A program made the translations under genes and the position numbers. A stretch of 64,000 nt of DNA from Natrinema versiforme (lineage in GTDB: Archaea > Halobacteriota > Halobacteria > Halobacteriales > Natrialbaceae). The DNA is taken from assembly GCF_005576615.1 (NCBI RefSeq), contig NZ_CP040330.1:868001-932000 (forward strand). The letters run 5' to 3'. Positions within the stretch are counted from its first letter, which is position 1. Each line of letters begins with the position of its first letter. The notes under the pieces are model-generated. The model did no database searches. It saw only the letters and a program-made list of their open reading frames with translations, and was not told the origin of the DNA. Of this stretch, positions 2,242 through 52,920 are shown piece by piece.

Positions 2242-3470
2242 CGCTGAGCGGGGCGGTGGTTCGCCTGCGCGCCGTCGTCGGACTCGCGTTCGCACAGCTC
2301 CGCCGGTCGCCCGGTCGAACCGCCCTCACCGTGCTCGCGGTCACGCTGGCCGTGCTCTCGGTGACGGTGCTCGCGAGCCTCGGGGTCGGGGTCGTCGACA
2401 AGGGCGAACAGGGGCTGGACAACGCCGACCGGGACATCTGGATCTCGAGCGATCCGGTCGATCCGTCCGCGAGCGGCACCGAGAACCCGATCGTGGTGGC
2501 ACACGCCAAGTCGGCCGAGATCACCGCACGGGACGACATCCAGAGCGCCTCGCCGATCGCGATGTACGACGTCTATCTCGGAACGAACGCGTCGGACCTC
2601 GAACGCAGGCCCGCGGTCGGCGTCCAGGAGACCCACGATGGGTTCAACTTCCGGGAAGGACGCGGGTTCGAGGTCGACGAGGAGACGGCTGCCACTCCGC
2701 CGCCCGAGGAGCCGACGGTGGGCGAGATCGTGATCGATCCGCGCGTCGCCGACTCGCTGAACGTCTCGGTCGGCGAGACGATTTACGTCGGGACCAGCAG
2801 ACAGACGGCGGACGCAGCCGAGTTCACCGTCGTCGGGACCTCCGGCTACTACTCGCAGTATCTGGGCTCGCCGGGGGTGACGGTCCCGCTGGGCGATCTG
2901 CAGGCGGTCGCCGGTACGTCGGGAACCGACCGGGCGACGTTCATCACGGCTGACGTGACCGATGACGCCGATCGAACGACCGTCGCGAACGACCTCGACG
3001 AGGAGTACCCTGAGTACGACGTCCGGACCAGCGACGAACAGGTCCAGTCGATGGTCGAGGAGCGCACGATCGTCCTCGCGAGCGGCGCGACGCTGGTCGG
3101 CCTCGCCGTCGTCGGCGGCGTCGTCCTGACGGCGAACCTGTTCGCGCTCGTGGCCCACCAACAGCGCGAGCAACTCGCGGCGCTCCGGGCCGTCGGGCTC
3201 TCCCGGCGGGTGCTCGCGGGCACGATCGGCACGCAGGGCCTCGTCATCGGGCTGCTCGGCGGCCTCGTCGGGCTCGCGACGACGCCGCTGGCCGTGCTCG
3301 GGGTGAACCGATTCGCGGCGTCGGTACTCGGCTTCGAGGGACTCCTCCGGACCCCGCCCGCCGTCTATCTCGGCGGGTTCGCGCTCGCGCTCGTCGTCGG
3401 CACGGTCGTCGCGATCGTCGCCGGCTGGCGGGCCGGCCGCTATGCCCGCATCGAACACCTCGAGATCTGA
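2238..3470 (+). CDS. FtsX-like ABC transporter permease (second of a pair)
   Basis: A 410-residue permease with the same architecture as its neighbour: an N-terminal helix (about residues 25-50), a periplasm-type domain (about 55-270), and three C-terminal helices. The coupling segment AALRAVGLSRRVLAG lies between helices 2 and 3. It starts inside the stop codon of the preceding permease (ATGA, 2238-2241), so the three genes form a tight operon for a complete MacB/LolCDE-like exporter. The two permeases are divergent in sequence, which fits a heterodimer. No substrate can be assigned. Confidence 0.9.
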   Translation: MTLSGAVVRLRAVVGLAFAQLRRSPGRTALTVLAVTLAVLSVTVLASLGVGVVDKGEQGLDNADRDIWISSDPVDPSASGTENPIVVAHAKSAEITARDDIQSASPIAMYDVYLGTNASDLERRPAVGVQETHDGFNFREGRGFEVDEETAATPPPEEPTVGEIVIDPRVADSLNVSVGETIYVGTSRQTADAAEFTVVGTSGYYSQYLGSPGVTVPLGDLQAVAGTSGTDRATFITADVTDDADRTTVANDLDEEYPEYDVRTSDEQVQSMVEERTIVLASGATLVGLAVVGGVVLTANLFALVAHQQREQLAALRAVGLSRRVLAGTIGTQGLVIGLLGGLVGLATTPLAVLGVNRFAASVLGFEGLLRTPPAVYLGGFALALVVGTVVAIVAGWRAGRYARIEHLEI

Positions 3471-27186: not shown

Positions 27187-28455
27187 ATGCTGGAAACAAC
27201 CCGCACCTATCGAGCGAAAATCGTCAACCACTCTCAAGTGAGTGACGATCTCGATGACTGCGGACACTCAGCATCCAAACTGTGGAATGTCGCCCGCTAT
27301 CACACCCAACAAGAATGGGATGAAACCGGCGAGATACCGTCCGAAGCCGACCTCAAGCGTGAACTAAAAGACCACGAACGATACAGTGACCTACATTCTC
27401 AGTCAAGTCAGCGAGTTCTAGAAGAGCTTGCTGAGTCGTTCAACGGTTGGTTCAAAAAGCGCAAGAACGGCGATACAGACGCGAATCCACCCGGCTACCG
27501 AAAGCGAGGCGACGACCACCCACGCTCCACCGTAACGTGGAAACAAAACGGCATCAAACACGACGACAAGCACAACCAACTCCGCCTGAGCAAGGGCTTC
27601 AACCTGAAGAACCACCGCTCGGACTTCATCCTTGTAGAGTACGAAACGCGACCGGACGTAACCGTAGAGAACATCCAGCAAGTTCGAGCCGTATGGAACG
27701 GCGACCGTTGGGAACTCCATCTCGTCTGCAAGGTCGAGATTCCCGTCGAGGACGCACCCGGCGACAACACTGCTGGAATCGACCTCGGTATCAAGAACTA
27801 TCTGGCCATCGCCTATGACGATGGAGACGCCGAGTTGTATCCGGGGAACGCGCTGAAGCAGGATAAACACCACTTCACCCACGACGAGTACAAGACGGAA
27901 GGCGAGAACGGCCCGTCCAAACGTGCGCTCCGCGCTCGGCAGAAGTTGTCTCGGCGGAAAGACCACTTCCTGCATGCTCTTGCCAAACACATTGTTGAGC
28001 TGTGCATCGACCACGAGGTTGGTCGTATCGCTATCGGTGACTTGAGCAAGATTCGTGAGGACGAGAACGGTGACTCACGGAACTGGGGCAAGCGTGGAAA
28101 CAAGAAACTCCACGGATGGGAGTTCGACCGCTTCACCACGTTGCTCGAATACAAGGCCGAAGAACATGGTATCCTCGTTGACCGCAAGAGCGAGCGCGAC
28201 ACGAGCAAGACGTGTTCGTGCTGTGGCCGGAAGCGTGATGCGAATCGGGTGGAGCGTGGATTGTACGTCTGTGAATCGTGCGGAGCAACGATGAACGCAG
28301 ACGTGAACGGTGCGGTGAACATTCGCAGAAAGATAACTCAGAATCCCCCAACTGGGGATATGAGTAACGGTCGTTTGGCACGGCCAGTAACCTACCTGTT
28401 TAACCAAACCTCGGGGCGTTTCGCACCGAGCGAACAGGTAGGTTGCGAACCTTAA
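27187..28455 (+). CDS. tnpB: RNA-guided nuclease-family protein TnpB
   Basis: A 422-residue IS200/IS605 OrfB/TnpB protein. The RuvC-like domain shows the first acid in GIDLGIKN and the third in NADVNGAVNI. The second site, usually an E in a (V/I)xEDL segment, reads IAIGDLSKIRED, with Gly in the Glu position. A zinc ribbon with two CxxC pairs (CSCC and CESC) lies between RuvC-II and III. The ATG at 27187 begins the typical METT/LETTRTYR N-terminus. TnpB proteins use the RNA from the element's right end to cut DNA and favour element retention. If the missing Glu is not replaced, this one may bind without cutting. Confidence 0.92.
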   Translation: MLETTRTYRAKIVNHSQVSDDLDDCGHSASKLWNVARYHTQQEWDETGEIPSEADLKRELKDHERYSDLHSQSSQRVLEELAESFNGWFKKRKNGDTDANPPGYRKRGDDHPRSTVTWKQNGIKHDDKHNQLRLSKGFNLKNHRSDFILVEYETRPDVTVENIQQVRAVWNGDRWELHLVCKVEIPVEDAPGDNTAGIDLGIKNYLAIAYDDGDAELYPGNALKQDKHHFTHDEYKTEGENGPSKRALRARQKLSRRKDHFLHALAKHIVELCIDHEVGRIAIGDLSKIREDENGDSRNWGKRGNKKLHGWEFDRFTTLLEYKAEEHGILVDRKSERDTSKTCSCCGRKRDANRVERGLYVCESCGATMNADVNGAVNIRRKITQNPPTGDMSNGRLARPVTYLFNQTSGRFAPSEQVGCEP

Positions 28456-28522
28456 TATCCCAACTCTCAGGAATCCTCGCCCTTCAGGGCGAGGAGGATG
28501 TCAACAGGGACAGAATAGTTAA
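28330..28522 (+). ncRNA. Predicted TnpB guide RNA (omega/reRNA) overlapping the right end
   Basis: In TnpB systems the guide RNA comes from the 3' end of tnpB through the right-end hairpin, with roughly 16-20 nt of flanking DNA as guide. The same layout is present here: the end of tnpB, a spacer, the hairpin at 28475-28494, and then GAGGATGTCAA before the flank. Sense-overlapping RNAs from haloarchaeal tnpB genes are known. The start position is a guess. The guide would begin near 28507. Confidence 0.55.
28475..28494 (+). repeat. Right-end hairpin of the TnpB element
   Basis: An 8-bp perfect stem CCTCGCCC/GGGCGAGG with loop TTCA, differing from the left-end hairpin at one base pair and the loop. 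It is both the DNA end structure and probably the scaffold stem of the guide RNA. Confidence 0.8.
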
Positions 28523-50910: not shown

Positions 50911-51026
50911 CTCGAGTAAACAAGCGAGTCGATGAGATGAATTGTTAGGGGTGCCTCCGTGCCGTTGTAATCGGCACGTACGCGCAACACACTATTGGGG
51001 GCGCTCGTAGGATTGGATTCAGAGAA

Positions 51027-51154
51027 GCGCCGGCTGGGATTTGGACAACGCGAAGACAGTCCCGCTCGCTCACGTCGTTCGCTCGCAGGCTGCGACTTCT
51101 CTCGTCAAATCCAGACCGATTCCTGTCGCTCACGGAGTTGTTCGCGACAGAAAT
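51027..51154 (-). mobile_element. tRNA-Gly-derived mini-element, copy 1
   Basis: A segment bounded by the 3' end of the tRNA-Gly gene ending at 51154 and a degenerate 20-bp copy of that end (51027-51046, two mismatches). The 108 bp between contain hairpins: CTGTCGC/GCGACAG (51123-51149) and an inverted copy of the tRNA T-arm (CAAATCCAG at 51106-51114) facing the boundary repeat. The same segment, nearly identical, recurs at 51544-51671. It has no coding capacity. Confidence 0.55.
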
Positions 51155-51224
51155 GCGCTGGCTGGGATTTGAACCCAGGTTGTGACCATGGCAAGGTCAC
51201 GTGATACCACTACACTACCAGCGC
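51154..51224 (-). tRNA. tRNA-Gly (anticodon GCC)
   Basis: The minus strand reads as a 71-nt tRNA with discriminator A. The acceptor stem is GCGCTGG/CCAGCGC, the D-arm is GTGTAGTGGTATCAC, the anticodon stem is TGACC/GGTCA around loop TTGCCAT (anticodon GCC), and the T-arm is CCTGGGTTCAAATCCCAG. There is no intron, and CCA is not encoded. A TATA box (TATAAATA) at 51274-51281 predicts a leader of about 28 nt. Identical to the copy at 51672-51742. Confidence 0.95.
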
Positions 51225-51273
51225 GTTCGACCGCCACTCGTTCTCGAGTGCAAATAGACGGTTGCCCCTCATC

Positions 51274-51281
51274 TATTTATA
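51274..51281 (-). promoter_or_regulatory. TATA box of the first tRNA-Gly gene
   Basis: Minus-strand TATAAATA lies about 54 nt before the 5' end of the tRNA at 51224, so transcription should start near 51250. Confidence 0.6.
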
Positions 51282-51407
51282 CATAACGAACCGATGGCAA
51301 ATGGTTGGAAATCCATCTCATTCCGGGTTTCGGCGGGCGATCCGCTACGGTATCGTCAGCTCTGGAACCATTTCGTGGCGCGAGTGAAGACTCGAGGCTC
51401 GAGAAAC

Positions 51408-51543
51408 GCGCTGGCTGGGATTTGAACAACGCCTGAGAACCTGCTCACTGCGGTCGCAGAACCTCAGTCTGATACAAATCCCTGGATGATTTTCCAACAC
51501 TCGGACTTCTCGCTCCGCTCGTTGTTATTGAGTATCGAAAAAT
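51408..51543 (-). mobile_element. tRNA-Gly-derived mini-element, copy 2 (distinct interior)
   Basis: It starts with an exact 20-bp copy of the tRNA-Gly 3' end at 51408-51427, followed by AACGC, and ends at the next exact copy at 51544. The interior differs from the other two mini-elements, but the layout is the same: the boundary repeat faces an internal inverted copy (ACAAATCCCTGG, 51474-51485), and an inner stem includes CTGAG/CTCAG. No ORF. Period to the next repeat is 136 bp. Confidence 0.55.
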
Positions 51544-51671
51544 GCGCTGGCTGGGATTTGAACAACGCGAAGACGGTCCTGCTCGCTCACGTCGTTCGCT
51601 CGCAGGCTGCGACTTCTCTCGTTCAAATCCAGACCGATTCCTGTCGCTCACGGAGTTGTTCGCGACAGAAA
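51544..51671 (-). mobile_element. tRNA-Gly-derived mini-element, copy 3
   Basis: It lies directly 3' of the second tRNA-Gly gene. An exact 20-bp tRNA 3'-end copy is at 51544-51563, and an internal inverted copy GTTCAAATCCAG is at 51621-51632, so the pair can form a 12-bp stem around a GC-rich hairpin (GCTCGC...). The hairpin CTGTCGC/GCGACAG is at 51641-51667. It is nearly identical to copy 1, with a few substitutions. Confidence 0.6.
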
Positions 51672-51742
51672 TGCGCTGGCTGGGATTTGAACCCAGGTTG
51701 TGACCATGGCAAGGTCACGTGATACCACTACACTACCAGCGC
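51672..51742 (-). tRNA. tRNA-Gly (anticodon GCC), second copy
   Basis: Same 71-nt sequence as the tRNA at 51154-51224, with all four arms intact. Its own TATA box, minus-strand TTATACAT at 51773-51780, lies about 35 nt upstream, so a short leader is expected. The two copies are 518 bp apart and share downstream sequence, consistent with a local duplication. Confidence 0.95.
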
Positions 51743-52044: not shown

Positions 52045-52920
52045 ATGACTGTCAGCGTACTCGTGCCGTCGTCGCTCAGCCGAGAAGCCGAGGACAAACG
52101 CGAGGCAACTCGCAAACTCGGATACGTCGCCCGCGCGGCGACGATCTTCCGTGCTGATCGCCTGGTCGTCTATCCCGATCGGGATGGGGAAACCGGGCAG
52201 TTCGACGGCGGGTTCGTAAGCACCGTACTGCGATACGCCGCAACGCCCCCCTACCTCCGCAACGAGGCATGGGGGATGCGGGACGAACTGGAGTACGCGG
52301 GCGTCTTGCCGCCGCTCCGCGCCATGTCACAGACCGGCTCCGAATCTACCGGTTCGGGGTCGTCAAGACAAGGAATCGTGACCGAGGTCGGACCTGAAGG
52401 GCGCGTCCGGGTCAATTGCGGACTGCAACACCCGATCTCCCTCAACGTACCGCCGAAAATGGCGGTCGAGGAGGGGGAGCGCGTGACCATCAGGATCTCT
52501 TCGCGACGACCGGTCCGGGCGAAGCTCGTCGATGAACCCCTTCCGGGGCTTTCGATCGAGCAGACGGACCTGCAGGCAGCACTCGGCCGTGAGGACGCCG
52601 GCGTTCGCATCGCAGCCTCCCGATTCGGTGCAGAACTCACCGTCGGGCGGCTCGAGACGCTGGCCGGACGCACCAAGCGCGACGGGATGACCGTCGCCTT
52701 CGGCGCGCCCGAGAGAGGGCTGCCGGCTATCCTCGGAATCGAGGAATCGGCCATCGAAGCGTCGTCCGGACAAGACGACGCGGCCGATAACGGAGTCGAA
52801 CCCACTGCCGATCCGGGGTTCGACCTCTGGCTAAACACGGTTCCGGATCAGGGAAGCGAGGTCGTTCGAACGGAGGAGGCTCTGTTCGCGACGCTTGCTC
52901 CCCTCTCACTGAGAGAGTGA
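52045..52920 (+). CDS. SPOUT-fold RNA methyltransferase (DUF171 / SPOUT1 family)
   Basis: A 291-residue putative RNA methyltransferase, first gene of the S10 operon. The N-terminus VSVLVPSSLSREAEDKREATRKLGYVARAATIF matches the C9orf114/SPOUT1 family. A small beta-barrel insert (about 110-165) is followed by the knotted C-terminal SAM-binding part with TVAFGAPERGLPAILG. Relatives methylate rRNA or tRNA uridines; the exact site is unknown. It precedes uL3 by 4 nt, so it is co-expressed with ribosome assembly. Confidence 0.87.
   Translation: MTVSVLVPSSLSREAEDKREATRKLGYVARAATIFRADRLVVYPDRDGETGQFDGGFVSTVLRYAATPPYLRNEAWGMRDELEYAGVLPPLRAMSQTGSESTGSGSSRQGIVTEVGPEGRVRVNCGLQHPISLNVPPKMAVEEGERVTIRISSRRPVRAKLVDEPLPGLSIEQTDLQAALGREDAGVRIAASRFGAELTVGRLETLAGRTKRDGMTVAFGAPERGLPAILGIEESAIEASSGQDDAADNGVEPTADPGFDLWLNTVPDQGSEVVRTEEALFATLAPLSLRE

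Follow-up and report, generated by a model that had tools for sequence, protein, structure and literature searches.

Double-hairpin units behind the tRNA genes of Halobacteria: a tRNA-Gly(GCC) array of Natrinema versiforme as a possible case of gene-less cassettes at tRNA 3' ends

Background

Partial copies of tRNA genes behind the complete ones are usually taken as scars of integration. Haloarchaeal proviruses carry duplications of tRNA 3' ends (PMC3119063), those of 21-22 nt being typical scars (PMC3119063; review PMC8371274), and "partial tRNAs" next to full copies are reported for Haloferax gibbonsii LR2-5 (PMC7921747). Here we analyze an array of such repeats beside two tRNA-Gly genes in a stretch of 64,000 nt from Natrinema versiforme (contig NZ_CP040330.1, positions 868,001 to 932,000; hereafter the window), where they are part of a unit that is repeated, structured and shuffled throughout an archaeal class. 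One or more double hairpins of ~100 bases stand behind many tRNA genes across the whole class Halobacteria, and we see about an even chance that the window array is the local case of a class-wide family of gene-less, modular hairpin cassettes ("tRNA-tail cassettes") recombining at tRNA 3' ends. This reading builds on what is directly observed, i.e. the location of the units, copies of the tRNA 3' end with sharp edges, an inverted copy specific for the local tRNA, structure on the sense strand, shuffling of modules, and clean presence or absence of whole units.

The tRNA-Gly(GCC) array of the window

The two tRNA-Gly(GCC) genes are identical in sequence and lie on the minus strand at 51154-51224 and 51672-51742, N73 counted in (ARAGORN, Rfam). 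Coordinates are positions in the window, and all parts of the locus are on the minus strand and read in the tRNA direction. The units have the layout S - HP1 - S' - INNER - S, where S is the last 21 bases of the tRNA (G53-N73), HP1 a hairpin beginning directly after N73, S' a shortened, partial inverted copy of S, and INNER a stem-loop; S', INNER and the S copy folded together are called HP2. Behind the tRNA-Gly(GCC) genes the units measure 107-115 nt, and the array runs from gene 2 through unit a, unit b and ~180 bp to gene 1 and unit a', with the following features:

51672-51742, minus: tRNA-Gly(GCC) gene 2, N73 at 51672, block S at 51672-51692 (ARAGORN; Rfam, 66.7 bits)
51637-51671, minus: HP1 of unit a (TTTCTGTCGCGAACAA..GTGAGCGACAGGAAT), directly after N73, HP1 type 0 (fold)
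51621-51636, minus: S' of unit a, inverted partial copy of the tRNA 3' block (CGGTCTGGATTTGAAC) (sequence, fold)
51564-51620, minus: INNER stem of unit a with two tandem G-A steps, type IN-0 (fold, module typing)
51543-51563, minus: S copy of unit a (GTTCAAATCCCAGCCAGCGCA), 21/21 identity to tRNA G53-N73
51489-51542, minus: HP1 of unit b (TTTTTCGATACTC...GTTGGAAAAT) (sequence, fold)
51472-51488, minus: S' of unit b (CATCCAGGGATTTGTAT) (sequence)
51428-51471, minus: INNER stem of unit b, type IN-1 (CAGACTGAGGTTCTGCG...) (module typing, fold)
51407-51427, minus: S copy of unit b, 20-mer exact, N73 position changed to G
51154-51224, minus: tRNA-Gly(GCC) gene 1, identical to gene 2 (ARAGORN, Rfam)
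51119-51153, minus: HP1 of unit a', identical to HP1 of unit a (sequence)
51105-51118, minus: S' of unit a', shorter by two bases (CGGTCTGGATTTGA) (sequence)
51047-51104, minus: INNER stem of unit a', type IN-0 (sequence, fold)
51026-51046, minus: degenerate S copy of unit a', two mismatches in the 20-mer, N73 position T

The original prediction for this locus was made from the sequence alone and proposed small non-coding units with direct repeats of a tRNA 3' end at their borders, which the S copies and their edges bear out. It had counted three extra copies of a 20-mer from the tRNA 3' end; those at 51408-51427 and 51544-51563 are exact, whereas the one at 51027-51046 is inexact, with two mismatches (GTCCAAATCCCAGCCGGCGC). 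The spacings of 128, 136 and 129 bp are correct, and a fourth interval, from gene 1 to the copy at 51408, is 253 bp. Folding confirms the boundary repeat standing opposite the internal inverted copy, with a GC-rich stem enclosed. Two interiors are indeed near-identical and one is different, the near-identity being partly due to a ~518-bp duplication of tRNA plus unit within the locus (120 nt at 100% and 79 nt at 95%). The fold of the unit at 51543-51671 has z -4.2 on the sense strand, with 0/200 shuffles as good, and z -1.3 on the opposite strand. In the tRNA-Gly stretch, only the two tRNAs match Rfam 15 at gathering score.

Distribution

In the N. versiforme genome, at least 18 of the 22 bases of a tRNA's own 3' end are found again in sense within 300 nt downstream at 21 of the 49 chromosomal tRNA loci. 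No such copy occurs in antisense in this genome, the end of one tRNA is never found behind a different tRNA (0/2060 pairs), and the upstream control gave one copy, which is the tandem Gly pair itself. Chance does not account for the downstream copies. A census of 30 tRNA loci per genome in two other haloarchaeal families gave an own-end copy at 16/30 and 6/30, and in a genome from another class at 0/30.

A sequence signature of HP2 (GGATTTGAA-N25..55-TTCAAATCC), a pattern that demands no tRNA, is present in 198 of 242 Halobacteria genomes and in 66 of 73 genera. The reversed pattern, used as a control, had no match in the 242 genomes, and in other classes of the same phylum the signature was matched in 1/101 genomes, in a place without the structure. 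Almost all the matches examined in other families (46/47) lie directly behind a tRNA gene, in sense; the sole tRNA-less one (L145) is within a 280-aa reading frame and is therefore probably due to chance. Likewise, 72 of 82 matches in named genomes are directly behind a tRNA, in sense, and 6 of the other 10 are at the locus edge. When a related pattern was compared with a set of ~85,000 prokaryote species, each represented by a single genome, those of its matches that were listed came from haloarchaea (the genera Natrinema, Haloterrigena, Halorubrum, Haloferax, Haloarcula, Natronomonas, Halorientalis and others), with the exception of one unassigned Euryarchaeota metagenome bin. Wider T-loop patterns gave ~1-2 structureless matches in half of the genomes outside Halobacteria, with somewhat fewer control matches.

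Similar units are thus present across the class in other haloarchaeal genomes, where the original prediction had proposed to look for them. As they are so widespread, the simple tandem duplication that it had named beforehand as speaking against mobile elements is excluded as the origin of the family; the window's pair of tRNA plus unit a is nevertheless such a duplication. The proposal of a tRNA-Gly-specific att site of one haloarchaeal integrase is rejected, since the same architecture occurs at 31 tRNA types, each with its own 3' end. Occupancy of tRNA loci by units varies among relatives.

Dense clusters of tRNA genes, with a likeness to virus-type tRNA clusters, were also noted at G000:C3:23121-25911 (L111) and G052:C1:1152765-1154999. 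No unit-like 3' copies were seen in the former, which is on a secondary replicon.

Anatomy of the units

The collection holds 290 units from 31 tRNA types and 16 amino acids. The S copy starts GTTCAAA or GTTCGAA and agrees with T54-N73 of its own tRNA at 20/20 positions in 197 units and at 19/20 in 43. Identity per position is 0.90-1.00 over G53-N73, mostly 0.2-0.3 upstream of position 52 and ~0.5 beyond N73, where the first nine bases of the S copy are conditioned by the search in signature-found units and the remaining bases are free; over the 290 units and 31 tRNA types the copy is sharply bounded at G53 and N73. The bodies are 60-185 nt long, with a median of 103 nt. In a gapped alignment test, S' fits its own tRNA better than other tRNAs in 206 of 260 units (permutation z 12.6). 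The fit is most evident in family f12, where S' is often the complement of S minus a few bases, for example CGGAC-GGGGATTTGAA for the tRNA-Arg TTCAAATCCCCTCGGGTCCG.

A unit of Hfx. gibbonsii at tRNA-Glu (L193) has a 22/22 S copy, and the "partial tRNAs" of strain LR2-5 (PMC7921747) are very likely S copies of these units. Whether the units are mobile elements or RNAs, haloarchaeal "partial tRNA" calls are no evidence of proviruses.

Structure of the single strand

Each unit has two adjacent hairpins, and the folded hairpin site has bulges on one strand. Among 277 units, tandem G-A steps make up 398 of the 483 two-by-two internal loops, and the tRNA-sense strand is more stable than the opposite one in 215 units, by 4.7 kcal/mol on average. 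One INNER type aligned across genera shows compensatory changes in 5 of 19 pairs, with only two cells broken. In S', changes that keep a pair as a G-T wobble are about twice as common per site as those making an A-C mismatch (0.047 versus 0.020). The one-strand stability, the G-A steps and the compensatory changes show that what folds is one strand of the unit, the tRNA-sense one, be it as RNA or as single-stranded DNA. A palindrome in duplex DNA, being alike on both strands, would not give such a strand bias. The conserved sense-strand structure is compatible with the unit being transcribed together with the tRNA.

Presence, absence and exchange of modules

Close relatives differ by exactly one S-bounded unit at L014 compared with L017, and at L007 compared with L004 and L016. 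Some relatives thus lack exactly one unit, in line with the sites without a unit that the original prediction had suggested seeking. In G042 (family f12), tRNA-Arg(ccg) and tRNA-Lys(ttt) have one HP1 and one INNER in common, whereas S and S' are each tRNA's own. Moreover, the tRNA-Gly arrays of the genus Natrinema show 17 different pairings of 9 HP1 types with 8 INNER types. HP1 and INNER thus act as distinct modules that meet at S and S', and the sharing between tRNA-Arg and tRNA-Lys supports a movement of units between tRNAs, as far as sequence comparison can tell.

Two larger inserts were seen in Gly arrays. In one relative, an insert of ~1 kb (L024, 2033-3332) lies behind the tRNA-Gly between a decayed unit and a later unit and has an apparent reading frame for a protein judged by eye to be HNH-nuclease-like; this interval, the only longer one studied closely, looks like a secondary insertion. 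The other, an AT-rich insert of ~0.9 kb ending in a partial tRNA-Gly (L022, 2251-3106), looks like the remnant of an ordinary integrative element.

Search for carriers and partners

No integrase linked to the units was found, with no search for one aimed at the surroundings of the arrays; the units are too short for a gene, and the search for a partner element with the same att site and layout was non-exhaustive. No terminal inverted repeats shared with an autonomous element, nor such a partner, were identified, and S acts like a 21-bp duplication. A loose pattern gave 107 matches in the viral contigs of IMG/VR, just one of them with a similar fold and with no tRNA near it. A BLAST search of a phage collection with the window locus gave no match, and a search of plasmids matched two large replicons. 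The first carries a chromosome-like copy of the locus beside the genes for ribosomal proteins L3/L4. The second is a plasmid of Natrinema thermotolerans (CP031304.1; L501, ~2990-3165 of the locus), where a partial tRNA-Glu 3' end precedes a complete unit whose two S copies match. No full tRNA gene was found at this locus, the only plasmid case of a unit without one, and it is possibly an att-like site or a vehicle for the transfer of units between replicons. Finally, searches of the openly accessible literature turned up no account of the hairpin unit; subscription papers were largely outside this search, so that an earlier report is possible.

Interpretation

If the units are cassettes, the tRNA 3' end (block S, G53-N73) would be their address for insertion and recombination. 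A unit would enter at S and duplicate it, and the tRNA gene would therefore stay intact. Folded HP2, although a single strand, would imitate the double-stranded 3' end of the tRNA and is a candidate recombining site, comparable with the attC hairpin of integrons; because it presents a duplex equal to the tRNA end, it could be accepted by an enzyme that recognizes such ends. In RNA, S' would be tied up by the S copy and INNER instead of pairing with the tRNA's own 3' end, and we propose that this makes the insertion harmless. Later units would insert next to the tRNA, and recombination between repeats would delete and reshuffle modules. More tentatively, and with clearly less than even confidence, we suggest a dedicated recombination system, specific to the class Halobacteria, by which hairpin cassettes without genes could be built at any tRNA gene. 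Each tRNA would provide its 3' end as a programmable address, copied once in sense and once inverted, and the folded single strand would be recognized, giving an integron-like array without genes.

Several results weigh against recombining cassettes. The one-unit differences could equally be deletions between 21-bp direct repeats, and the change may have gone either way, as L004, L016 and L007 are about equally distant. Within the genus Natrinema a given tRNA tends to have the same INNER types again and again, which indicates much vertical inheritance. No recombinase for the units was identified, and the specific unit pattern had no match in the IMG/VR viral contigs. A conserved fold with compensatory changes is equally expected of a functional RNA. 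The complementarity of S' beyond the T-loop core is only partial, as is its match outside family f12; an unanchored class-wide duplex test saw no specificity, and an anchored test gave a modest effect (68/20000 permutations). As the unanchored test failed and the anchored and gapped tests succeeded, the match of S' to its own tRNA is real but partial.

Chief among the rivals is a functional RNA. The units would then be conserved 3' trailers of pre-tRNAs in which HP1 and HP2 guide the processing of the 3' end, shield the precursor or give rise to a stable small RNA with an acceptor-stem-like outer helix, and copies would arise by tandem duplication. A structure that is always on the tRNA-sense strand, with tandem G-A steps and sense-only stability, fits this well, as do the compensatory changes with few broken pairs, the excess of wobble-making over mismatch-making changes in S' and the persistence of the units throughout the class. 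However, just some tRNAs per genome have units (21/49, 16/30 and 6/30), their occupancy varies among relatives, and modules cross between tRNA types; the S copy also keeps the sequence of the tRNA at positions without a pairing partner, which structure alone would not require. We consider such a trailer unlikely, if still a serious candidate.

The units could also be what is left of successive viruses or plasmids at tRNA 3' ends, with att copies and flanking palindromes remaining after the loss of most of the element. The 21-22-nt duplications typical of provirus scars (PMC3119063; PMC8371274) suit this origin, and so do the N. thermotolerans plasmid, with its partial tRNA-Glu followed by a complete unit, and the unrelated ~0.9-kb insert with a partial tRNA in one Gly array. 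It is made improbable by the uniform size of the bodies, the module types conserved across the class and the failure to see any integrase-bearing version, and random decay would not be expected to give a precise inverted S' and shuffling. We give as little weight to a by-product of replication or repair, in which template switching by hairpin turn-around starts at palindromes behind tRNA genes, S being copied inverted at HP1 and in sense again at INNER. Two turn-arounds would produce the S-HP1-S'-INNER-S alternation and account for both S' and S matching the local tRNA, but the common sharp edges at G53 and N73 in 31 tRNA types and the conserved G-A mismatches suggest recognition or selection, not accident.

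Mobile units would represent a way of inserting DNA where both ends of the element come from the target, and one would then have to ask what enzyme can read all tRNA 3' ends alike. Should the units be RNAs, a large share of haloarchaeal tRNAs has a conserved structured trailer outside Rfam, possibly relevant to tRNA 3' maturation. Either reading is testable in Haloferax species with existing genetics.

Other repeats and RNA features

Three exact hairpin tips (GCGAACGAAGTGAGC) at 76-bp spacing were noted at G000:C2:3601847-3602013 (L523-L525) and are possibly a separate tandem hairpin array. An element with a similar G-A hairpin tip recurs away from the tRNA arrays (L078, L080, L504 and L505); GGGCCGACGACCGATGTG is common to two copies and GAGGAGTGC(TTTT) occurs in several, and the element is perhaps another undescribed structured RNA or repeat. 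In the window, Rfam matches on the plus strand are sot0042 (sense overlapping transcript) at 28331-28495 (95 bits) and, close to the tRNA-Gly locus, the ribosomal protein leader L4-Archaeoglobi at 52394-52493 (75 bits). In Natronorubrum bangense, the counterpart of the tRNA-Gly locus adjoins the L3/L4 genes.

Comparison with known systems

The hairpin unit, the inverted S', the generality of the arrangement and the structure are absent from the cited portion of the account of the Hfx. gibbonsii "partial tRNAs" (PMC7921747). Like elements that integrate at tRNA genes by tyrosine recombinases of the SNJ2, pNOB8 or SSV type, and like their att scars, the units repeat the tRNA 3' end directly and in one orientation, leave the tRNA gene intact and are cleanly present or absent, and these repeats are present at both unit ends. 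Unlike them, the units are ~100 nt long, have no gene and no integrase, use the tRNA's own sequence at 31 tRNA types, and contain an inverted partial att copy and conserved hairpins. Mitochondrial double-hairpin elements and GC clusters, as well as REP/MITE-like palindromes, resemble the units in being small, non-coding and double-hairpin and in lying beside RNA genes, and perhaps also in mobility. To our knowledge, none of these has ends tailored to the local tRNA; the units have such ends, and no transposase partner was found for them.

Integron attC arrays are similar in that cassettes follow one another head to tail beside a fixed site and have a folded hairpin at their end, and in the shuffling of modules. 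The hairpin plan of the units, with an outer helix, one-strand bulges, an inner helix and a top that varies, is also attC-like, but this likeness is confined to the layout. The attC core of integrons is GTTRRRY. The S copies do not have this core, and bodies of 60-185 nt are not gene-bearing cassettes, whereas a folded hairpin with one-strand bulges is present. In contrast to integrons, the units thus hold no genes, no IntI is shown, and the recombining sequence would be the tRNA end instead of GTTRRRY.
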